Positions 32,898 to 42,897 of a stretch of 64,000 nucleotides of DNA are shown one piece after another. Every line of letters begins with the position of its first letter. Within the stretch, counting starts at the first letter, position 1. The stretch is from NCBI RefSeq assembly GCF_006385135.1, contig NZ_CP041025.1, positions 1 through 64,000 of the forward strand. Reading direction: 5' to 3'. This DNA comes from Paremcibacter congregatus (GTDB lineage Bacteria; Pseudomonadota; Alphaproteobacteria; Sphingomonadales; Emcibacteraceae). Below the pieces are notes generated by a model. It saw only the letters and a program-made list of their open reading frames with translations. It searched no databases and was not told where the DNA came from. The translations under genes were made by a program, and so were the position numbers.

Positions 32898-35717
32898 TTA
32901 GATAAACAGGCTGCCGCTGTAATTCCCGGTCAGGGCGGAAATGCGGTTAAGCCCGTCCTGATAATTGTTCAGCTGACTGAGCAGATGGGGCGGTACGGTG
33001 CCTTTTTTAATTTTTGCCTGTTTCAGGATATCGGCTTTTACGGGATCATAGGTCAGGGAGCGATAAGCACGCTCGATGGTTTCCAATGCTGCCGCGATCT
33101 GACCGCTGACATATTCGGCTTCTTTTTTGGTGCGCAAGGAAAAACCGGACAGTAATGCCAATCCAAAAACACCACCAAGATTCTCCGGATCGGTGCCTAA
33201 TGTTTCTTCGCCAATGGCGTAAACTTTATCAGAAGGCAGAATTTTTGTGGGTTCCATGCCGAGCTTGATCAAGGCATCCTGGGCGCCTTTGCCTGCGGAG
33301 ATGTCGATTGTTGCGCCAGCCTGGCTTTCAATCTTTAGCTCAGGCCCGTTCTCGCCAATGATCTGCACGGCCTTGACGTAGCGGAAAGAGGCCCGCTGAA
33401 CTTTTGTTGCAAGATCCGCAAAGGTATCGTCGGCTTCCAGTGTAATCTTCCGCTGACTGCCGCCATTGACCGAGATATAGAAGTAGTCGCCGGTCCGGGC
33501 CGAGGTCTGGGTGTCTATATCGTGGGTTTGTCTGTTGTTATAAAGGCCGGTTGGCAAGCCGAGCTTGGTCAGCACAGATGATCCAGTTGCGGAAAATGCC
33601 AAGGATGAGCTGCCTTTATAGCCGGTGGAACCGCCAAATTGTCTCAGCCAGTCGGCAGTACCTGTTGTGGCGTCAATCTTGGCGGCAAAGCCATCGGTGG
33701 TTCCGAATTTTGTTTCGCCCGGCAGGGTGCCGTCGGTTTTACCGGCAAGATAAACAGCCCCGTTATGTACGGTAAGCCCTTCGAGGCGGTCATTGCCGCT
33801 TGACCCGAGATAATGGGTCCAGTTGGCGGTGAGCGAGGCGCCGTTGTCGGTGAGTTTGGTCAGAAAACCATCGGCGCTGCCGCTGTGGGCATTGGTGGTC
33901 GTGCCGCCTGAAAGGCTGCCGTTATAAGATGTGCCGGTGATAAAGACCTGACCGCTGTCGTCTACGGCTATATCGGCGATTTTGCCGCCCGCCAGATTAC
34001 CAAGATCATACGTCGCCAGCTCATTGGTCAGGTCCGTCGCATCCAGCTTGCGGATGATTGCGCGCCCATCTTCCCGGGAGGCAATGAGAATATTGCCGTC
34101 GCTGGCGATGGTGACGGCCTCGCCATATTCACTGCCTGTGCCGCCGATCTGTGTTAAATCGGCTATAACGCCGTCTGCGCCGCCCAGTCGGGTGACATAG
34201 ATATCAGAACCGCCGCCAGCGGTGGTTGTGCTGTCGAGCCTGCCGGAAATGGAGCCTGTGACGATGACATCGCCATTGGCGTCGATGGCCAGGCTGTTGG
34301 CCTGGTCCTTGGCAATGGTGTCCTGTTGATATGTCCAGAGTTCTTCCCCGGCGCTGTCGAATTTGCTGATAAAGCTGTCGAGGCCGCTGAATGTATCGGA
34401 AGTCACCAGTTCGCCATTGACCTGGCCGGCGATGACCACATTGTCATTGCCGTCAATAACCAGATCGAAAGCCTCTGCTTCATCGGAGGCGCCGAGCAGC
34501 CGTGACCAGAGAACATTGCCGGCTGCATCCTGCTTGCTCAGGAAAACATCCTGATTCTGAGATGTATTTATCTGTGTCCCAAAATCGCCTTTTGTCGTAC
34601 CGACCACATAGACGTTACCCTGACTGTCGACCACGCTGGCGGTAGCTTTGGTTTCGAAAAGTTCGGCAGGCGCCGTGATCGTTTCCCCGTCCTCATCGGT
34701 GCTGGGTGGGATGAAATTATTCAAATTTGTTCCGGCAATCTGGGTATTGAATTCCGTAGTGGGGTCTGCCGCCGCAAGATTCCGCAATTTGGTCAGGGTA
34801 GCGGTTTCGACACTGTCGGAACCAACCGCCTTGTGAGAACCGGTCACATAGAGGGCGGGTTCAGTAATCTGGGCTGATAAAGTCACTTTTTCACTACTTA
34901 TGCCATCGACCATTAAGGCAAATTTGCCGGTGCTGACTTCTTTTACGCCAAAACGACTGTCATATTTCGAGACCTCGTTCCCTTCGGTGTCCAGTTTTGT
35001 AAGGGAAATAATCTGCTGGTTAATGTAGGAACTCAGACTGCTCAGTGTAATGGGTTCCGTGATTTGCGACAGGTCAATGGTGATGTCATCATTGACTGTG
35101 CCTGTATTCAGATTGACGGTAAAGACTTCTGTGCCGGAAAGTCCAGGGATTACCTGTGTTTTTGAAGAAACCGAGAGGGCGGAACCAATAATATCATAAT
35201 TATTTTTACCCAGAGAAACATCGCTCTGGAGCCGTGGTTCCTTTTTTCCGAACATCAGGCTCAGTTTGTCGAGTTCTGCGGCGCGGATATAGTCCTGTAC
35301 TTGGCTTAATCCGCCGCGAAACTGATCGCTCAATTTGGCCAAAATCGCTGTTGGGGTTGATTCTTCCTTGGCATAGTCGGCCACGGTCTTCAGATTATTG
35401 AGGGCCTGATACAAAGCAAAAAGGGCGCGTTCGTCCTTATCGCGGGTCTGCCGAACGTTATCGGTATTGAGGTCAATAAAGTTGGTTTTACCGCGCAAGG
35501 CGTTGTATTTTGCCGCCAAGGTGCGGTCGGAACCGGCCAGGGCATCCCACGGCGTAATTACCGCCGGGCCACGCTCAATCCTTGTCGGGGCATTTTGAAT
35601 GGCGGAGACAGTTCGGGTGACAGTTCGGGCGTTGAAATAGGAGCCAAGCAAATTCGCATCAAAATTAATCAATGTGAATGAGCTGGTTGATGTATTGTTA
35701 GAATTAAACCCAAACAT
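32898..35717 (-). CDS. FlaEY-like flagellar protein with SBBP-type beta-propeller repeats
   Basis: The 939-residue protein has no signal peptide. The N-terminal 170 residues and the C-terminal 100 residues are helical and resemble secreted flagellar/flagellin-type ends. The middle (about 350-710) is built of SBBP-like repeats such as ASVVDSQGNVYVVGTTKGDF, NDNVVIAGQVNG and NGDVIVTGSISG, which form a beta-propeller. A further FlgK/flagellin-like insert follows (YFYISVNGGSQRKITLEADD). This architecture matches the Caulobacter regulatory flagellar protein FlaEY. A ribosome site AAGGAT precedes the ATG, and a hairpin lies just upstream in the leader. No other core flagellar genes are in the window. 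Confidence 0.8.
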   Translation of the reverse strand: MFGFNSNNTSTSSFTLINFDANLLGSYFNARTVTRTVSAIQNAPTRIERGPAVITPWDALAGSDRTLAAKYNALRGKTNFIDLNTDNVRQTRDKDERALFALYQALNNLKTVADYAKEESTPTAILAKLSDQFRGGLSQVQDYIRAAELDKLSLMFGKKEPRLQSDVSLGKNNYDIIGSALSVSSKTQVIPGLSGTEVFTVNLNTGTVNDDITIDLSQITEPITLSSLSSYINQQIISLTKLDTEGNEVSKYDSRFGVKEVSTGKFALMVDGISSEKVTLSAQITEPALYVTGSHKAVGSDSVETATLTKLRNLAAADPTTEFNTQIAGTNLNNFIPPSTDEDGETITAPAELFETKATASVVDSQGNVYVVGTTKGDFGTQINTSQNQDVFLSKQDAAGNVLWSRLLGASDEAEAFDLVIDGNDNVVIAGQVNGELVTSDTFSGLDSFISKFDSAGEELWTYQQDTIAKDQANSLAIDANGDVIVTGSISGRLDSTTTAGGGSDIYVTRLGGADGVIADLTQIGGTGSEYGEAVTIASDGNILIASREDGRAIIRKLDATDLTNELATYDLGNLAGGKIADIAVDDSGQVFITGTSYNGSLSGGTTTNAHSGSADGFLTKLTDNGASLTANWTHYLGSSGNDRLEGLTVHNGAVYLAGKTDGTLPGETKFGTTDGFAAKIDATTGTADWLRQFGGSTGYKGSSSLAFSATGSSVLTKLGLPTGLYNNRQTHDIDTQTSARTGDYFYISVNGGSQRKITLEADDTFADLATKVQRASFRYVKAVQIIGENGPELKIESQAGATIDISAGKGAQDALIKLGMEPTKILPSDKVYAIGEETLGTDPENLGGVFGLALLSGFSLRTKKEAEYVSGQIAAALETIERAYRSLTYDPVKADILKQAKIKKGTVPPHLLSQLNNYQDGLNRISALTGNYSGSLFI

Positions 35718-35735
35718 ATGGCATCCTTACATAAA

Positions 35736-35757
35736 TTCGTATCCCCGCGGGTACGAA
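35736..35757 (-). promoter_or_regulatory. Leader hairpin before the FlaEY-like gene
   Basis: Six-base arms (35736-35741 TTCGTA and 35752-35757 TACGAA), extended by a CCC/GGG pairing inside, form a hairpin about 18 bases upstream of the start codon and just ahead of the AAGGAT ribosome site. It may affect translation or mRNA stability. The remaining bases up to 35993 hold another small hairpin (GCGCCA...TGGCGC near 35870) and no gene. Confidence 0.4.
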
Positions 35758-35993
35758 CAGAGTTCCATTACTCAGTATACTAAGAATCAGTTAACAAAGT
35801 ATCACTTAAAGATAGCATGTGATATGTCGCACAACAATAGGACGATTTTGCCTAGTGATCCCGGCAGCGCCAAAGGGCTGGCGCTTATTGATTTTTTAGG
35901 GTGTTTTCGGGGCTAATTCAAATGAACTATTGAACTCGCCGCCGATCAGGCTTAAATCTTTGACATCAGGAAATTCTAAAACAGGAAAGTGGT

Positions 35994-36293
35994 ATGGGCG
36001 GTTTTGCGTATGATTTGGCGTGGTTGGTGGGCGCTGTGTTCGGGGCGATCAAATTTGGTCTACTGGTGTATATTGTGCTCGGCCTGCTGGTTTCTTTCTC
36101 TGTCGTCAACAGTCACAATCAATTTGTCGCGCTGGTCATGGGGGCGCTTTATCGTGTTTTTGAACCGATGCTGGCGCCGATCCGGGCTATACTGCCCAAT
36201 ATGGGCGGGTTGGATTTCTCGCCGGTTCTGTTGTTTATCGCGCTCGAATTCGTCAGCCGTATTCTGATGCGGGTGTTGTATAGCCTGGCGTAA
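35994..36293 (+). CDS. YggT family membrane protein
   Basis: The 99-residue protein has two hydrophobic regions (about 14-45 and 75-95) with the conserved YggT loop YRVFEPMLAPIRAILPNMGGLDFSP near 53-77. YggT proteins are small inner-membrane proteins of uncertain role, linked in various bacteria to osmotic tolerance and cell division. It starts a plus-strand group with yggU six bases downstream and folD overlapping. Confidence 0.9.
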   Translation: MGGFAYDLAWLVGAVFGAIKFGLLVYIVLGLLVSFSVVNSHNQFVALVMGALYRVFEPMLAPIRAILPNMGGLDFSPVLLFIALEFVSRILMRVLYSLA

Positions 36294-36299
36294 CGCCTG

Positions 36300-36617
36300 A
36301 TGCCGCTTACCCCGCAGGAAAAGGGTGTCCGTCTCGCCATCCGTCTGACCCCCAAGGCCTCGAAGAACGGTTTTGGTGCGGTGGAGCAGACAGCGGACGG
36401 CGGCGCACAGGTTAAAGCCTATGTCACCACAGTACCCGAGGACGGTAAAGCCAATAAAAGCCTGATCAAGTTACTGTCGAAAGCGCTGAAAATACCCGCA
36501 AGCCAGATTTCTGTTGCATCGGGCCAGACAAATCGTAATAAACAGATCTTATTTGACGGTGCGCCAGACGAGCTGATGCGCCGGTTAGGTCATTGGATAG
36601 AGGATCTCACCCCATGA
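36300..36617 (+). CDS. YggU/DUF167 family protein
   Basis: The 105-residue protein matches the UPF0235/DUF167 family: [15 protein letters not shown] near 12-26, [26 protein letters not shown] near 39-64 and [14 protein letters not shown] near 77-90. The function is not established. It is six bases behind yggT and its stop overlaps the folD start (ATGA), giving a tightly packed operon. Confidence 0.93.
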
Positions 36618-37513
36618 GTACAAACACCACGGCAGATAATATCATCGACGGAAAAGCCTTTGCGGCGAAACTGAAGGAAAAAGTCGGTCGGCAGGTGGCT
36701 ATTCTAAAGGAACAGCATGGCCTCATCCCTGGCCTTGCGGTGGTTCTGGTGGGGGCGGACCCGGCGAGCGAAGTCTATGTACGCAACAAGAACAGCTCGA
36801 CCAAGGCCGCCGGCATGAACAGCTATGAGCATCGTCTGGACGCATGCGTCAGTGAAGCCGAGTTGCTGACTTTGGTTGAACAGCTTAATCACGATCCGGC
36901 GGTGCATGGTATTCTGGTGCAGCTTCCCCTGCCGAAGCATATCAATGAGGCGGCAGTGATCGACGCCATTTCGCCGGACAAGGATGTGGACGGTTTTCAT
37001 GTCATCAATTCAGGCCTGCTGGCCACCGGCGGCAAAGGCATGGTGCCCTGCACGCCACTTGGCTGCATCATGATGTTGAAAGACCGTCTCGGCAATCTGT
37101 CGGGCCTGGATGCGGTGGTGGTCGGGCGCTCCAATATCGTCGGCAAGCCGATGGCGCAATTGCTGCTGAATGAAAGCTGTACGGTGACCATCGCTCACAG
37201 CCGGACGAAGAATCTGCCCGATGTGGTGCGGCGCGCCGATATTGTTGTTGCCGCGGTGGGTGTGCCGGAACTGGTCAAGGGCGACTGGATCAAAAAGGGC
37301 GCGACCGTGATTGATGTGGGCATCAACCGCATCACGACAGATGAGGGCAAGACCCGTCTGGTCGGCGATGTGGAATTTGCGGCCGCCGCCAAAAACGCCG
37401 CCGCCATCACCCCGGTGCCGGGCGGTGTGGGACCAATGACCATTGGCGTTCTGCTGCAGAATACCGTCACCGCCGCCTGCCGTCAGGCGGGCGTCACCGA
37501 GCCTGAGGTTTAA
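36614..37513 (+). CDS. folD: Bifunctional methylenetetrahydrofolate dehydrogenase/cyclohydrolase
   Basis: FolD interconverts 5,10-methylene- and 10-formyl-tetrahydrofolate. I start it at ATG 36614, which overlaps the yggU stop; an in-frame GTG-type start at 36593 would add seven residues inside yggU. The 299-residue product shows the catalytic Lys region [40 protein letters not shown] and the NADP-binding [18 protein letters not shown], ending with [19 protein letters not shown]. All hallmark residues are present. Confidence 0.96.
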
Positions 37514-37595
37514 CGCTGATGATCTGGTTTTTTCACTCGTCCTGGAGGTGAATTCGGCGTAGAGTTCTGGTGTAATTCGTTAAGGAGGGGGAAAT

Positions 37596-38309
37596 GTGTT
37601 GACCATCACCGATGCCTATCTAATCCATACGTTCTTTGACCTTATCGCGGCGCTGGGGGCTGTTGCCGGGGGATATTGTGTTTATCGCTGGCGACTGGAG
37701 GAACATTTACCACAGATGACCGATAGGATTGGCTATGGCTATTTTCTGTTTCTTAGTCTGGGCAGTATCGTCGGAGCCTTTCTGTTCGGAACGCTTAATC
37801 TGTATCTGTCGGGTATTCCGGAAATTGGCCGCAGTATTATCGGGGCCATTTTCGGCGCAACACTTATGGTGGAACTCTATAAAGGTCGAAGAGGCACAAG
37901 AGGATCTACGGGTTATATTTACGTGATTCCCTTGATAGTTGTGATCATCATTGGTCGGCTGGGATGTTTGTTTTCCGGTCTGGCGGATGACACTTTCGGC
38001 GTAGCGACTGGAAAAGCGTGGGGTTGGGATTTCGGTGATCAGGTTTTGCGACATCCCGTCGCGCTTTATGAAAGTGTGTCGATGCTACTCTTTTTGATTG
38101 GCAGTCTGGCGATCTTGCAGGCGCGGGTTGATCTTTTCACACGTTATGGATTTTATGTCTGTATTGGCTATTATGCCGTTCAACGGTTCTTTTGGGAGTT
38201 TCTTAAACCTTATCAGGATATCGCAGGGCTGTTAAATGTGTTTCAGATAATTTGCCTGATATTGGTTTTCTACAGCATAATAATGATAGGTAAAGCACGA
38301 TATGAGTAA
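37596..38309 (+). CDS. Lgt-like (prolipoprotein diacylglyceryl transferase family) membrane protein
   Basis: The 237-residue protein has about seven membrane segments and the two best-kept Lgt marks: GRLGCLFSGLADDTFGV near 128-144 and RHPVALYES near 158-166. Lgt moves a diacylglyceryl group from phosphatidylglycerol to a lipoprotein cysteine. This protein is shorter than true Lgt (about 290) and the loop with the essential His is not evident, so it is a divergent paralogue that may act on another lipid or protein. Translation starts at a GTG after a strong AGGAGGGGG ribosome site. It overlaps the radical SAM gene by eight bases. The segment is visibly AT-richer than folD. Confidence 0.78.
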   Translation: MLTITDAYLIHTFFDLIAALGAVAGGYCVYRWRLEEHLPQMTDRIGYGYFLFLSLGSIVGAFLFGTLNLYLSGIPEIGRSIIGAIFGATLMVELYKGRRGTRGSTGYIYVIPLIVVIIIGRLGCLFSGLADDTFGVATGKAWGWDFGDQVLRHPVALYESVSMLLFLIGSLAILQARVDLFTRYGFYVCIGYYAVQRFFWEFLKPYQDIAGLLNVFQIICLILVFYSIIMIGKARYE

Positions 38310-39720
38310 CGAGACGCGCAAGCAGACGCCTTATATATTTTATGGTCAAACCACCTCTTTATGTGAGGAATGTCTTGATCTGGTGCCTGCAAAAATCCTG
38401 ATTGAAGGTACGGATGTTTTTTATCAAAAGCGGTGCGCTATGCATGGCGTTCAAAAAACAAAAGTGTCAAGTGATGCGGATTATTTTCGTAAGACGAAAG
38501 CGTATATTAAACCAGGCGACCGGCCTCTCACGTATCAAAGCAAGACGGACTATGGCTGCCCCTTGGATTGTGGGCTGTGCCCGGATCATGAACAGCATAG
38601 TTGTCTTGCCCTGATTGAAATCAATGAAGAATGTAATCTGGAATGCCCAGTCTGCTTTGCAGAATCCTCACCGGAGAAGAAAACACATCGTTCTCTTGTC
38701 GAAATAGAAGCCATGATGGATGCATTGGTGCGTAGCGAGGGCGAACCGGATGTTTTGCAGATCAGTGGTGGAGAGCCCACCATCCATCCGCAAATTTTCG
38801 ACATCTTGGATAGTGCGAAATCCAGACCTATTAAACATCTTATGATCAATACCAATGGCGTTCGCCTGGCGCGAGACCGGGATTTTGTCCGGAAACTTGC
38901 GGATTATGCACCGGGGTTCGAAGTTTATCTGCAATTTGACTCTCTGGAGAAGGCGGTGCTTGAGAATCTGCGCGGTATCGATTTGAGGACGATACGCCGT
39001 AAGGCCTTGGAACATCTTGAGGAATTTAATATCTCGACCTCTCTGGTCGTGACGGTTAAAAAAGGGGTAAACGACCATGAAATCGGTGCGATCATTGATC
39101 ATGCCCTGACCTTTAAATGTGTACGGGGCATCACCTTCCAACCGGTGCAGGATGTGGGACGTAACGCGGGATTTGACAAAAACACGGACCGGCTTCTTCT
39201 TACCGATGTACGCCGTGCAATTTATGAGCAGTCCGATATTTTCACACCTGACGACATCATCCCCTTGCCGTGTAACCCGGAATCCATCGCGATTGCATAC
39301 GGCTTGCGTTTGGGCAAGCAGGTCATGCCGATTACATCGCTAATCCCGCAGGAGGATTTGATCGCGGAAGTGCCCAATGCCGTAGCCTTCGAGAAAAATG
39401 ACAGGTTGCGCGACAAAGTGATTGATTTGTTCTCTCTCTCAAGCGGTGACTTGAATACGGCCGAGCGCATGAGCTCTTTGCTCTGTTGTTTGCCTGAGGT
39501 GCCTGTTCTGGAAAATTTGGGGTATGAGAATATCTTCCGGATTACAATTGTTCAGTTTCTTGATGCGGCTAATTTCTGCGTCGGGAATGTAAAACGATCT
39601 TGTATTCATTTTATCACACCGGAGTTGGAAATCATTCCTTTTGATACTTATAATCTTTTTTATCGCAATGGGCTGGTTCATGAGATGAGAAAGAAACAAA
39701 GGGGATTATATGACAGTTAA
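38302..39720 (+). CDS. Radical SAM enzyme of the tetraether-synthase-like (MJ0619/COG1964) family
   Basis: The 472-residue protein has a Cys-rich N-terminal region (LCEECLDLVPAKI near 20-32 and KRCAMHG near 43-49, rubredoxin-like), a second cluster motif YGCPLDCGLCPDHEQHSC near 84-101, and the radical SAM motif CNLECPVC near 112-119 followed by ISGGEPTIHPQI near 154-165. This layout is that of the archaeal MJ0619/Tes family, which couples lipid chains through a radical reaction. Which substrate this bacterial member uses is unknown; relatives methylate or cross-link. It overlaps the Lgt-like gene upstream and a small membrane protein gene downstream, so the three are one operon. Confidence 0.85.
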   Translation: MSNETRKQTPYIFYGQTTSLCEECLDLVPAKILIEGTDVFYQKRCAMHGVQKTKVSSDADYFRKTKAYIKPGDRPLTYQSKTDYGCPLDCGLCPDHEQHSCLALIEINEECNLECPVCFAESSPEKKTHRSLVEIEAMMDALVRSEGEPDVLQISGGEPTIHPQIFDILDSAKSRPIKHLMINTNGVRLARDRDFVRKLADYAPGFEVYLQFDSLEKAVLENLRGIDLRTIRRKALEHLEEFNISTSLVVTVKKGVNDHEIGAIIDHALTFKCVRGITFQPVQDVGRNAGFDKNTDRLLLTDVRRAIYEQSDIFTPDDIIPLPCNPESIAIAYGLRLGKQVMPITSLIPQEDLIAEVPNAVAFEKNDRLRDKVIDLFSLSSGDLNTAERMSSLLCCLPEVPVLENLGYENIFRITIVQFLDAANFCVGNVKRSCIHFITPELEIIPFDTYNLFYRNGLVHEMRKKQRGLYDS

Positions 39721-39943
39721 AAAATTCTTTGGACATCTTTTAAGGGCAGGTGGAATTCTTATGGCTGTGCTGGCTGGGGGCTGTGGGTTGGTTTTCATGG
39801 TTGTAGATATATCGTTTGGCGAGCTCGTCTTGATACTTGGTGGCGTCCCCTGCTTGATTGGTATAGGGTTATTTTATTGGGGAAAGAATATACTCAAGAA
39901 AGAAAATGTCGATGTTGAAAAGGACATGAGTGTCTGGGATTAG
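39710..39943 (+). CDS. Small two-helix membrane protein in the radical SAM operon
   Basis: The 77-residue protein has two hydrophobic helices (about 13-33 and 37-58), with a Gly-Gly-Cys-Gly in the first, and a charged tail (KKENVDVEKDMSVWD). It overlaps the radical SAM gene by 11 bases, which argues for coupled expression. I recognise no family; it may anchor or assist the two upstream proteins at the membrane. Confidence 0.68.
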   Translation: MTVKKFFGHLLRAGGILMAVLAGGCGLVFMVVDISFGELVLILGGVPCLIGIGLFYWGKNILKKENVDVEKDMSVWD

Positions 39944-40018
39944 TCGTGTAATAACTTAACAGGTAAAAAAAAGAGAGGGCCCCCATCCTTTCTGACATAC
40001 CTTCATTTAAGTTGTTTT

Positions 40019-40222
40019 AGGATCACTAAACCCGCACGAAATTGCCGTGTGGAAGCCGAGGCTGATGGGTTTCAGGTGCACCGGTCCTGGTGGATTTCGG
40101 CGGACAGGGTGGTGAAAACCCGTCGTGACGGGCGCAAGATTGTTCTGATTATGCGCAATGGTCTGGAAATTCCGGTGTCGCGAACCCATCAGGCGATGGT
40201 CAAAGAACGATTTTTAGGGTAA
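40019..40222 (+). pseudogene. C-terminal fragment of a LytTR-domain regulator
   Basis: In one open frame ending at TAA 40220-40222, about 55 codons give a clear LytTR DNA-binding domain end: GFQVHRSWWISADRVVK, GRKIVLIMRNGLEIP and VSRTHQAMVKERF. The N-terminal part of the domain and everything before it are absent and no suitable start is present. The homology fades about 75 bases after the end of the small membrane protein gene. It looks like the stump of a regulator cut off where the AT-rich cassette begins. The left edge given here is approximate. Confidence 0.72.
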
Positions 40223-40259
40223 CTGTAACAGAGGGGATGTCTGTTACTGCAGGGAGTGA

Positions 40260-40982
40260 ATGATGTACGAGCTATTTATTGCGACTTTTGTGACTTTCTT
40301 TGTGGTGATTGATCCTCTGGGGATTGCGCCGATTTTTGCTGTCATGACCGATGGGGCCAGTACGTCTTTCAAGCGACGCATGGTGTTTAAATCAACCCTG
40401 ACAGGGGCTATTATCCTGCTTTTGTTCGCGTTCCTCGGCAGTGGTTTTCTGTCGGCGCTTGGCATTAGCATGATGGCCTTCAAGACCGCGGGCGGGGTAT
40501 TGCTGTTTATGATTGCATTGGAAATGGTGTTCGAAAAACGCACCGAACGCCGCGAGAAAACTTCCGAGGCTGTGTTGCATGAACATGAACTGGAGCATGA
40601 ACAGGAAGAAGCCGTCCGGGTGCAGCAGGCCTCAACAAAGGGCGGTCAGAAAGCCGTGGTGCCAGTGAGTGATGAGGAGGATTTCGAAGATATTTCTGTC
40701 TTTCCCATGGCCATTCCTTTTATTGCAGGGCCCGGCAGTATCGCAACCATCATGTTGATGATGACCCATCATGAAGGCAGCCGCACGGAACAGGGTGTGA
40801 TTATCGGGGCGCTGCTGATCACAATTCTGGTGACGATCATCATGTTGCTGATGGCGAGTAAGATCATTGATCTGATGGGTCAGACAGTCGCCAATGCCAT
40901 CACCCGCATTTTGGGTGTGATCTTGGCCGCGATGGCCATTCAATATATATTTGACGGCATCAAAGCCACCTTTATGGGGTGA
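40260..40982 (+). CDS. MarC family membrane protein
   Basis: The 240-residue protein has six predicted helices with MarC features: FVVIDPLGIAPIFAVMT near 15-31, and PMAIPFIAGPGSIATIMLM near 149-167. The role of the family is unclear despite its name. Between the two halves (about 95-140) sits an unusually long charged loop rich in Glu, His and Arg (HEHELEHEQEEAVR), larger than in typical members. A ribosome site AGGGAG precedes the two possible ATG starts (40260, 40263). Confidence 0.9.
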   Translation: MMYELFIATFVTFFVVIDPLGIAPIFAVMTDGASTSFKRRMVFKSTLTGAIILLLFAFLGSGFLSALGISMMAFKTAGGVLLFMIALEMVFEKRTERREKTSEAVLHEHELEHEQEEAVRVQQASTKGGQKAVVPVSDEEDFEDISVFPMAIPFIAGPGSIATIMLMMTHHEGSRTEQGVIIGALLITILVTIIMLLMASKIIDLMGQTVANAITRILGVILAAMAIQYIFDGIKATFMG

Positions 40983-41034
40983 GGCCGGTATTTTGAAGAA
41001 TTTAACTGATACTATAAAAAAAAGAGACTGATTT

Positions 41035-42897
41035 ATGGCGAGAAAGACGGGATTATGGGGCTACGTGGTGGCCGGTATTTTGGGTATGGTGAGCATCGGG
41101 ATCACAGCGGCGACGGCGCGCGATCCCCACTCCTTTGCTAATGTGGAGCAAGTGGCGAGTACGCACCTCAATCTGGATATTATCGTTGATTTTGACCGGA
41201 AGGTTTTTGAAGGTACGGCGGAATATGACATCAAACGCCTGACGCCTGGCGCGCATCCTTTCGTTCTGGATACCCGTGATCTGGTGATCCATAAGGTTGA
41301 GGTCAAGGCCTTGGACCAGGATTGGGAATTGGCGTCGTTTGAACTCGCCAAGGCGTTGCCGCCGTTAGGCTCGAAGCTGACCGTCACTCTGCCGGTCACG
41401 GCCAAGAAGGTGCGTATCCATTATGCCACGCGACCGGAGGCCACCGGCCTGCAGTGGTTGACCCCGGCCCAGACCGCGGGCAAGAAACATCCGTATGTCT
41501 TCACGGAATCTCAGCCCATTCATACCCGCAGCTGGGTGCCGATTCAGGATACGCCGGCATTGCGTTTGACGTATCATGCGCGGATTCGTACACCGGAAGA
41601 CCTGAAGGCGGTGATGAGCGCGCTTAATGATCCGGATGCGCCCCGCGACGGTGATTATGAATTCGATATGCCGCACAAAATTCCCCCGTATCTGATGGCG
41701 CTGGGGGTGGGGGACCTGTATTTTAAATCCATGTCTGAAAATACTGGCGTGTATGGCGAAGCCTATATTCTGGATGGGGCCGCCGCTGAATTTGCCGATA
41801 CCTATAAAATGATGCAAGTGGCGGAAAAAATGTATGGCCCTTACCAATGGGGACGTTACGACATTCTGATGATGCCGCCGAGCTATCCCATGGGCGGTAT
41901 GGAAAATCCGATGTTAAGCTTCATCACGCCGACGGTTATCGCCGGTGATAAAAGCCTGGTGGGGCTGATTGCCCATGAATTGGCGCACAGCTGGTCTGGA
42001 AATTTGGTGACCAATGCCAACTGGAATGACTTGTGGCTCAATGAAGGCACCACATCCTATGTGGAAAACCGTATTATGGAAGAAGTGTATGGTCCGAAGC
42101 GCGCCTTGATGGAACAGGTATTGGCGGTTCAGGGCTTGCACCGGGGACTGAAACGGCTTGACCCGGCCGACACCAGCCTGCATGCAAATTTGGACGGTCG
42201 GGACCCTGACGATGCTTTTAGCGAGATTCCTTATGATAAAGGGCAGCTGTTTTTACGTTATCTGGAAGAGAAATTTGGCCGGGCGCGGTTCGACCCTTTC
42301 CTGAAGGGGTATTTTACCGCCCATGCATTCGAGAATATTTCATCGGAAAAATTTATCGCCTACCTTCAGGCCAACCTGTTGAAAAAATATCCGGGCGTTG
42401 TGTCTATGGAGAAGGTCAGGGAATGGATTTATGGCACTGGCCTGCCTGAAGATGCGCCAAATCCGACATCCAATGTGTTTGAGGTGGTTGCGCAGCAACA
42501 GAGCGACTGGTTGGGGGGCAAGATGCAGCTCAGCCAGATTCCGACCGGTGAGTGGACAGTTCATGAATGGCTGTATTTTATCACAAATCTGCCCAAGGAC
42601 CTGAAGGCTCAACATATGGCGGAGCTGGACCGGGCCTTTGACCTGACGCGCTCCACCAACAACGAGATCGCCCATGCCTGGCTGTTGCAGGGCCTGAAAC
42701 ATGATTATAAGGCGGTCACGTCCCGCTTGCGGGAATATTTGCCGGTGATCGGGCGCAAGAAACTGATCCTGCCGCTTTATGAGCAGTTGGCGACAACACC
42801 CGACGGCTTGAAGCTGGCCCGCGAGATTTACGTTGCGGCCCGTGAAGGTTATCATCCTTCGGCGCAAAAGGCTCTGGATAAGGTTTTGGCGCAGTGA
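41035..42897 (+). CDS. Secreted M1 family aminopeptidase
   Basis: The 620-residue enzyme belongs to the M1 (leukotriene A4 hydrolase-like) zinc aminopeptidases. It has a signal peptide (about 1-25), the substrate-binding GGMENPM near 285-291, the zinc motif HELAHSW (His314, Glu315, His318) with the third ligand Glu in WLNEGTTSYVENR, and the C-terminal helical domain found in LTA4H-type enzymes. It would trim peptides in the periplasm. It is transcribed alone and ends at a strong terminator. Confidence 0.93.
   Translation: MARKTGLWGYVVAGILGMVSIGITAATARDPHSFANVEQVASTHLNLDIIVDFDRKVFEGTAEYDIKRLTPGAHPFVLDTRDLVIHKVEVKALDQDWELASFELAKALPPLGSKLTVTLPVTAKKVRIHYATRPEATGLQWLTPAQTAGKKHPYVFTESQPIHTRSWVPIQDTPALRLTYHARIRTPEDLKAVMSALNDPDAPRDGDYEFDMPHKIPPYLMALGVGDLYFKSMSENTGVYGEAYILDGAAAEFADTYKMMQVAEKMYGPYQWGRYDILMMPPSYPMGGMENPMLSFITPTVIAGDKSLVGLIAHELAHSWSGNLVTNANWNDLWLNEGTTSYVENRIMEEVYGPKRALMEQVLAVQGLHRGLKRLDPADTSLHANLDGRDPDDAFSEIPYDKGQLFLRYLEEKFGRARFDPFLKGYFTAHAFENISSEKFIAYLQANLLKKYPGVVSMEKVREWIYGTGLPEDAPNPTSNVFEVVAQQQSDWLGGKMQLSQIPTGEWTVHEWLYFITNLPKDLKAQHMAELDRAFDLTRSTNNEIAHAWLLQGLKHDYKAVTSRLREYLPVIGRKKLILPLYEQLATTPDGLKLAREIYVAAREGYHPSAQKALDKVLAQ

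Follow-up and report, generated by a model that had tools for sequence, protein, structure and literature searches.

Why should a bacterium keep a relative of prolipoprotein diacylglyceryl transferase (Lgt) beside a radical S-adenosylmethionine (SAM) protein resembling the tetraether synthase Tes, and what might either have to do with a very small membrane protein encoded immediately after them? The question is raised by a locus of Paremcibacter congregatus that lies within the first 64,000 nucleotides of contig NZ_CP041025.1, the stretch of DNA analysed here (the window). Three genes follow one another on the plus strand: one for an Lgt-like integral membrane protein (37596-38309, GTG start, 237 aa; Pfam LGT, 55.8 bits against a cut-off of 24.9), one for a radical SAM protein of the Tes/TrsS superfamily (38302-39720, 472 aa; Pfam Radical_SAM, 72.4 bits, and HMPTM zinc ribbon, 56.7 bits) and one for a small two-helix membrane protein (39710-39943, 77 aa). 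In the list of open reading frames (ORFs), the first pair overlap by 8 bases and the second by 11, so the three overlapping genes described in an earlier reading, made from the sequence alone, are all present. As set out below, the Lgt-like, radical SAM and small membrane protein genes form one conserved unit, and its two enzymes are diverged relatives of Lgt and Tes; what the unit makes can be addressed more tentatively.

A conserved three-gene unit

Is the Lgt-like gene a regular neighbour of the radical SAM gene, or does the window hold a chance juxtaposition? Among genomes of the same order, the radical SAM gene was found in 14 of 396 (the window's own included), and in all 13 of the relatives other than the window it adjoins an Lgt-like gene. 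In the GTDB contig collection at least 585 stretches matched, and the best 80 of them gave a broader view, as a sample of the closest relatives that does not include the window; according to their record titles, these loci belong to Alphaproteobacteria, Gammaproteobacteria, Planctomycetota, Paenibacillus and a Caenarcaniphilales bin. At 77 of the 80, the radical SAM gene has an Lgt-like neighbour, and the remaining three loci (L061, L099 and L103) start no more than about 110 bases from that gene, so that anything encoded upstream would have been missed there. In 397 evenly drawn Pseudomonadota genomes, the radical SAM gene was present in 14, each time with an Lgt-like gene within 1.5 kb (14/14). 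A reverse search of the same 397 genomes with the same settings gave scores of at least 199 bits for the Lgt-like profile in 14 of them, the next best score being 101 bits. The genomes bearing the radical SAM gene and those bearing the cassette type of Lgt are the identical 14 of 397; two independent sets of this size would coincide with a chance of about 10^-25, a figure that ignores shared ancestry. The sequence-only reading had proposed conservation of the pairing as a test of its idea, and these surveys show that the pairing is conserved.

Could the Lgt-like gene nevertheless be a spare copy of the ordinary lipoprotein enzyme, its position beside the radical SAM gene being accidental? The protein is a real member of the LGT family, and a canonical Lgt is indeed encoded elsewhere in the same genome (1787968-1788714), but the active site of the Lgt-like protein differs (see below), the pairing recurs across phyla, and the identity of the two sets of 14 genomes as good as refutes the idea, to which we give next to no credence. 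At one locus of a Planctomycetota bin (L069:9525-10421), the Lgt-like gene is downstream of the radical SAM gene and not upstream of it; the radical SAM protein of this locus groups among proteobacterial ones in the tree.

The third gene is also a regular component, and the most telling of the partners. At 75 of 81 loci, the radical SAM gene is directly followed by small hydrophobic ORFs; the 112 called include at least four that look spurious (the third and fourth at L065, and the second and third at L080). Under a fixed test that asked for an ORF with a cysteine motif, a small protein was found downstream of the radical SAM gene at 71 of the 80 contig loci, compared with 3 of 568 control genes on those contigs (taken from a simple ORF caller, false ORFs included; 38 of the 568 have a small hydrophobic ORF downstream). 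The same test was passed at 0 of 25 radical SAM genes lacking an Lgt-like neighbour, a control that covers the downstream side only; one of the 25, L169 (L196), has a small cysteine protein upstream.

Two diverged enzymes

The family profile of the Lgt-like protein matches Escherichia coli Lgt (5azb, E 4e-13). Its AlphaFold2 model (predicted local distance difference test, pLDDT, 89.9) gave no significant match with Foldseek alone (best E 0.31), and with VIA-align it placed 5azb first (Z 12.7, root-mean-square deviation 4.4 over 218 residues; next match Z 6.2). The protein thus shares with Lgt (5AZB) its fold and its membership of PF01790, and by alignment its residues R121, Y193, R197, E201 and E159 correspond to R143, Y235, R239, E243 and E202 of the E. 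coli enzyme. R121, Y193, R197 and E159 are kept in 20 of 20 alignment rows, and E201 in 18, with Asp in two Paenibacillus rows. According to the published work on E. coli Lgt, these residues lie in a polar network that binds phospholipid; mutants in R143, R239 and E243, and most of those in Y235, fail to complement, and E202 mutants are at least partly active (PMC4728403, PMC8689077). Elsewhere the site is different, I82, C124, L129 and K204 standing at the places of His103, Asn146, Glu151 and Arg246: the Asn146 position has Cys in 20 of 20 rows, that of Glu151 has no Glu in any of the 20, and that of Arg246 has Lys in 17 and Arg in three. The position of Tyr26, placed by eye, is occupied by F13 here and by Tyr in none of the 20 rows. 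A GRxGC motif is present in all 82 cassette Lgt-like proteins. An ordinary Lgt was rejected as an identity for the protein, as the defining features that were tested (HGG/His103, Y26, N146, E151 and R246) all fail. The arginines at the centre of the Lgt site thus remain while much around them has changed, and the protein may either still be a transferase, of an altered kind, or only bind lipids, its transfer activity having been lost.

The radical SAM protein has a rubredoxin-type site (C21-X2-C24-X20-C45-X2-H48), an N-auxiliary set (C86-X3-C90-X2-C93, within GCPLDCGLC, with H96 as an assumed choice of His ligand) and a radical SAM (RS) set (C111-X3-C115-X2-C118). This layout, which the sequence-only reading had recognised as a rubredoxin-like site, GCPLDCGLC and CNLECPVC, was as stated when the positions were checked, and the cysteines of all three sites are kept in every alignment row that reaches them. 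The same three motifs (CX2CX20CX2H, CX3CX2C plus His, and CX3CX2C) are described for the archaeal enzyme Tes (GDGT-MAS, MJ0619; PMC9433317). By sequence the protein matches Tes 7tol at E 8e-62; its structural model (pLDDT 77; several stretches are weak, of which 375-406 is the longest) matches 7tom over its whole length in Foldseek (E 1.3e-34, TMq 0.76, 495 columns, 30% identity), and the entries after 7tom and 7tol, of which SkfB is the best (E 1.2e-9), have E of 1e-9 or worse over roughly 200-340 columns. Its placement in the Tes superfamily therefore stands.

Within that superfamily, however, it seems to be neither of the two nearest named enzymes. It scores 303.8 bits with the NCBIfam model for TrsS (NF045646, cut-off 490) and 261.8 bits with that for Tes (NF045702, cut-off 450), and the best TrsS matches of four further cassette genomes range from 278.8 to 330.5 bits; judged by scores that fall under both cut-offs, it belongs to a separate clade, of neither the Tes nor the TrsS family. 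TrsS is the closest model by score, but the Bacillota proteins that pass its cut-off at L170, L174, L176 and L179 have no Lgt-like gene in 1.5 kb flanks, and a methyltransferase-like ORF is seen by eye near three of them (L170, L174 and L176). From Tes the protein differs not only in its partners, an Lgt-like protein and a small cysteine protein, but in its C-terminal part, where Met439 is replaced by V417, Tyr459 by F437, the CC pair by S433-C434, and PFC by PFD448 (with Glu in some relatives), and where there are extra invariant cysteines (C324, C395 and C396). These three and C434, all invariant in the alignment, may bind a C-terminal cluster. In the published account of Tes, Met439 is named as a ligand of that cluster, Met439 and Tyr459 are conserved in 1000 archaeal homologues, and the mutants M439A, Y459F and Y459L retain activity (PMC9433317), so the replacements at V417 and F437 do not alone exclude a coupling of lipid tails. 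An ordinary Tes was rejected all the same, on the score of 261.8 bits and the replacement of Met439 and Tyr459. Of the earlier proposal that the locus modifies lipids or lipoproteins, the parts that rest on a conserved Lgt partner and on a radical SAM protein of the Tes superfamily have held; carbon-carbon coupling or methylation of acyl chains is not established, the protein being below both family cut-offs and having other residues in place of Met439 and Tyr459, of a Cys in the CC pair and of the Cys in PFC.

How do the partners vary more widely in the superfamily? In 348 Bacillota genomes (the Paenibacillus centre included), a member was found in 30. Loci were available for 30 of the 35 matches, the other five not being covered, and some flanks were cut by contig ends; an Lgt-like gene occurs in the flanks of four of these 30 loci and in those of none of the other 26. 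Two of the four (L166/L194 and L167/L195) concern distant members and have the Lgt-like gene downstream, not upstream, so that the link between Lgt and radical SAM genes survives a change of gene order. Five Bacillota proteins were scored on the Lgt-less side: four exceed the TrsS cut-off of 490 bits, with 646 to 707, and one, L188, stays under it (394.7); the Lgt-linked L166, L167 and L128 do not pass it. In a 62-row tree of radical SAM proteins, the Lgt label needs 5 changes, compared with 20.6 in shuffles, and 27 rows without Lgt (24 Bacillota and three haloarchaeal) form one side; L099, L103, L166 and L169 are also labelled as without Lgt, at least three of them only because their loci are cut (L099 and L103 start at a contig edge, the Lgt ORF of L166 is cut by the locus end but whole in L194, and L169 is on a contig of 4775 bases). 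A search of plasmids matched 10 records, of which eight were inspected (H6 and H10 were left out): those of Persicobacter, Nonomuraea, Mycobacterium branderi and M. avium carry both Lgt-like and radical SAM genes, whereas on those of Mycolicibacterium vanbaalenii, Salinirubellus and two Haloarcula a methyltransferase gene comes after the radical SAM gene and no Lgt is annotated in the stretch shown. Thioredoxin-fold genes lie near the latter genes on the haloarchaeal plasmids (L126, L127 and L131, with DUF547 too) and on that of M. vanbaalenii (L125), and the radical SAM proteins of L125 and L126 score below the Tes and TrsS cut-offs; these plasmid loci apparently represent a different system.

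This distribution bears on the suggestion that the cassette enzyme does not work on lipids at all, acting perhaps on a small molecule or a redox partner. Its TrsS score is higher than its Tes score, C-terminal residues of Tes are replaced in it, and the related haloarchaeal and M. vanbaalenii enzymes adjoin methyltransferase and thioredoxin-fold proteins. Yet none of the 24 TrsS-side Bacillota loci has an Lgt-like gene in its flanks (four of the five scored passing the TrsS cut-off), and no small cysteine protein is found downstream at any of the 25 Lgt-less loci, from which it follows that the cassette clade has different, membrane partners; we therefore regard non-lipid chemistry as quite improbable.

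Two further arrangements may be recorded. In the actinobacterial L128, L129 and L130, the Lgt-like gene comes first, one or more genes for small membrane proteins with GxCTGxNP at the end follow, and the radical SAM gene is last; the radical SAM proteins of L128 and L129 are without the N-auxiliary GCPxDCGLC cysteines. In the distant Bacillota cassette L194:4616-6888, an ICMT/PEMT-type methyltransferase gene and a DUF4395 gene stand between the radical SAM and Lgt-like genes.

The small membrane proteins and a proposed reaction

The sequence-only reading had described the third gene product as a two-helix membrane protein, which it is, but not a plain one: the family to which it belongs is often encoded in tandem and has a buried cysteine that is nearly invariant. 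A cysteine lies within the hydrophobic stretch in 109 of the 112 small ORFs called, and a strict motif is passed by 97 of the 112, at 74 of the 81 loci. Tandem copies (two or more) are present at 27 of the 81 loci as called, and at 20 there are two or three that each pass the strict motif. The proteins are otherwise dissimilar, falling into 42 clusters at 45% identity, and neither the window's protein nor those of the other loci scanned have a Pfam match above cut-off; what they have in common is one cysteine column, 90% conserved, together with two glycine columns. Before the conserved cysteine there is a median of 19 uncharged residues (a script set the N-termini, which may therefore begin too late), the nearest charge before that uncharged run is Lys or Arg in 72 of the 77 cases having one, as in a lipoprotein signal, and Gly is at -2 in 84 of 107. 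Membrane helices are oriented by the positive-inside rule; applied to these basic residues, the rule predicts that the conserved cysteine is close to the outer face of the membrane and about as deep as in a lipobox. In Paenibacillus, Persicobacter, mycobacteria, Nonomuraea and the distant Bacillota, the cysteine is in the last helix, in the same sense. The near-invariant buried cysteine of the small protein is a candidate substrate site; in the window it would be Cys25 (codon 39782-39784, plus strand), proposed as the site of modification from its position and from conservation in the family.

Some variants of the small proteins deserve mention. At L034-L062 (mainly Bradyrhizobium), tandem copies are frequent, and besides the conserved cysteine the proteins often have another some 20 residues earlier (SGCLTA), where the first helix ends on the cytosolic side. 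At L198:1948-2244, a small protein encoded upstream of the Lgt-like gene has an N-terminus like a B-box zinc finger (a weak match, below cut-off), and its last helix terminates with the cysteine of AICG.

What might the unit do? The mechanism that we favour, tentatively and with rather less than even confidence, is that of a phospholipid-dependent unit that lipidates the cysteine of the small protein and alters acyl chains by radical chemistry. The Lgt-like enzyme would bind a phospholipid, probably phosphatidylglycerol, at the two arginines that it has in common with Lgt, and would move the diacylglyceryl group onto the conserved cysteine of the small membrane protein or proteins, probably without subsequent cleavage there by signal peptidase II. 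Before or after this transfer, the cytosolic radical SAM enzyme would use a 5'-deoxyadenosyl radical to activate an unreactive position in an acyl chain of the same lipid, and, aided by its C-terminal cluster, would form a C-C or C-S bond. The outcome would be a lipid altered covalently, either carried by the small membrane protein or contained in the membrane. The scheme draws on the adjacency and reciprocal presence of the Lgt-like and radical SAM genes, the core residues shared with Lgt, the cysteine of the small proteins, the fold match to Tes, and the reported binding of two phospholipids by GDGT-MAS (PMC9433317).

Several observations weigh against this scheme. In the Lgt-like protein, the HGG motif that contains the essential His103 occurs in none of the 82 cassette proteins, compared with 17 of the 17 other LGT matches examined (L213, a further cassette ORF outside the 82, has AAHGG, which was not placed in the alignment). 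Mutation of Tyr26, His103, Glu151 or Arg246 is reported to inactivate E. coli Lgt, R246K also failing (PMC4728403), and all four positions are replaced here, with an invariant Cys in place of Asn146; in view of these replacements and of the absence of HGG, transfer by the Lgt mechanism is not assured. As to the small proteins, only three of 109 fit the strict lipobox [LV][ASTVI][GAS]C, so an ordinary lipobox protein was rejected as their identity; the window's protein, with LAGGC, has no lipobox fit at -3 and -2, and, though its ORF is present, it misses the strict motif by one residue (an uncharged run of 12). Of the six loci without a direct downstream ORF, a looser search found a small cysteine ORF elsewhere in or next to the cassette at L031, L066, L068 and L108 (the case of L108 being weak), but none at L033 and L075 (2 of the 81 loci). 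The C-terminal ligands of the radical SAM protein, as we have seen, differ from those of Tes. Alongside the lost Lgt residues and these altered ligands, a third main difficulty is one of topology: the radical SAM protein shows no obvious membrane segment and so should act on the cytosolic side, whereas the cysteine is predicted to lie towards the outside.

The loss of His103 and other Lgt residues suggests either an acceptor without a lipobox or no transfer at all, and this is one of the attractions of supposing that free lipids are modified instead. The radical SAM enzyme would then couple or otherwise modify the acyl tails of ordinary phospholipids, the Lgt-like protein would transfer a diacylglyceryl group to a small-molecule or lipid acceptor or would only present lipids, and the small protein would be a scaffold keeping the soluble enzyme at the membrane, with a cysteine that serves only in packing. 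There is a precedent in Tes itself, which couples the tails of archaeal lipids, to which the cassette enzyme is matched in fold and in whose pocket E. coli phospholipids are reported to be bound (PMC9433317). A pathway of this kind would leave unexplained, however, why so many clusters of otherwise dissimilar small proteins conserve one cysteine, and why they occur in tandem at 20 to 27 of the 81 loci, and we place it on the unlikely side.

Might the small protein, rather than a lipid, be what the radical SAM enzyme modifies, for example by forming a thioether or cross-link at the cysteine, the Lgt-like protein then lipidating or docking the product? Small proteins that are often in tandem and have a near-invariant cysteine, encoded beside the enzyme, do resemble precursors, and bonds from cluster sulfur to carbon have a precedent in this fold (S-archaetidylglycerol; PMC9433317). 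After Tes, moreover, the next Foldseek match of the radical SAM protein is the maturase SkfB, the similarity extending over about the radical SAM core. On the other hand, the best structural match, over the whole length, is to a lipid enzyme, and Radical_SAM, Fer4_12 and the zinc ribbon are the only Pfam domains that score above cut-off in the protein. The precursors of radical SAM peptide maturases are usually soluble, and two hydrophobic helices would be atypical of them. Maturation of a membrane peptide seems to us distinctly unlikely.

If the favoured lipidation scheme were taken to its furthest consequence, the product would be a protein-bound lipid of a new class, in which a membrane cysteine carries a diacylglyceryl group with an acyl tail joined by a radical reaction to another chain or residue. 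We consider so specific an outcome unlikely, if not negligibly so; such a lipid would possibly be membrane-spanning and protein-anchored, in bacteria of several phyla.

The recipient site and the meaning of the cassette

How did P. congregatus come by the cassette? The GC content of its genes (0.462 for the Lgt-like gene, 0.466 for the radical SAM gene and 0.423 for the small protein gene) is lower than that of folD, the left neighbour (0.586; 36593-37513), as the sequence-only reading had remarked in suggesting that the cassette might be acquired, and lower than that of the whole window (0.534). The radical SAM gene was not found at E 1e-30 in 15 other genomes of the genus, several of which are incomplete. 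In four of these relatives (G036, G106, G109 and G101), the matches of folD and of marC, the right neighbour (40260-40982), are adjacent, 20, 16, 4 and 312 bases apart; the cassette is an acquisition in this genome, and genus relatives carry the empty site. The truncated regulator noticed at the end of the cassette is also real. At the right edge of the insertion (40049-40222, plus strand), there is a remnant whose product corresponds to roughly the C-terminal half of a LytTR domain (Pfam profile positions 47-96 of 98), and which matches, with 70% amino-acid identity, 53 codons at the 3' end of a 260-codon LytTR gene located 36 bases before marC in another relative, G066. With a remnant at the insertion edge, the 260-codon gene in G066 and empty folD-marC sites, the cassette seems to have arrived, and the regulator to have lost its 5' part, in a single local event or a local series of them.

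In its own genome, the radical SAM protein is the single match to itself, and no second copy of the small membrane protein was found at E up to 1. A functional link with folD, as a one-carbon supply for a methylase, was considered and set aside, as folD adjoins marC in cassette-less genus relatives (other cassette loci were not searched for folD). Identity as a defence system was rejected, the PADLOC matches (E 1.8e-14) being to viperin alone and covering the radical SAM core. The region 35500-42000 has no Rfam match that reaches the gathering score, predicted promoters and terminators were near chance (five found against 3.7 expected, and four against 3.2, respectively), and there is no tRNA in the window. 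Upstream of the cassette, on the minus strand, an ORF of 939 residues (32898-35717) contains repeat-like GNVYVVGTT/GDVIVTGS stretches.

Finally, we return to what such a cassette may mean. The cassette enzymes belong to known superfamilies. Bacterial Tes homologues, found in Acidobacteria and various Proteobacteria, have been proposed for the synthesis of branched glycerol dialkyl glycerol tetraethers (PMC8941075) in a study whose main text does not contain the term Lgt and whose 456 homologues may or may not include the present clade; the account of Tes itself notes homologues in bacteria that are not known to make biphytanyl chains, leaving their reactions open (PMC9433317). In searches of the PMC open-licence library we recognised no description of an Lgt-radical SAM pair or trio; three papers there contain both terms, mentioning the transferase once each. 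The fixed set of partners, an Lgt relative and small cysteine proteins, provides a concrete substrate hypothesis for one clade of these bacterial Tes homologues, and, by record titles, the cassette occurs in genera with cultivated strains (among them Bradyrhizobium, Sphingomonas, Novosphingobium, Caulobacter and Paenibacillus). The shared gene set suggests an unrecognised modification of membrane lipids or of lipid-anchored proteins, which, if the suggestion is true, would be a new lipid or lipoprotein modification for bacterial membrane biology and would bear on the assignment of bacterial tetraether-type biomarkers to genes.

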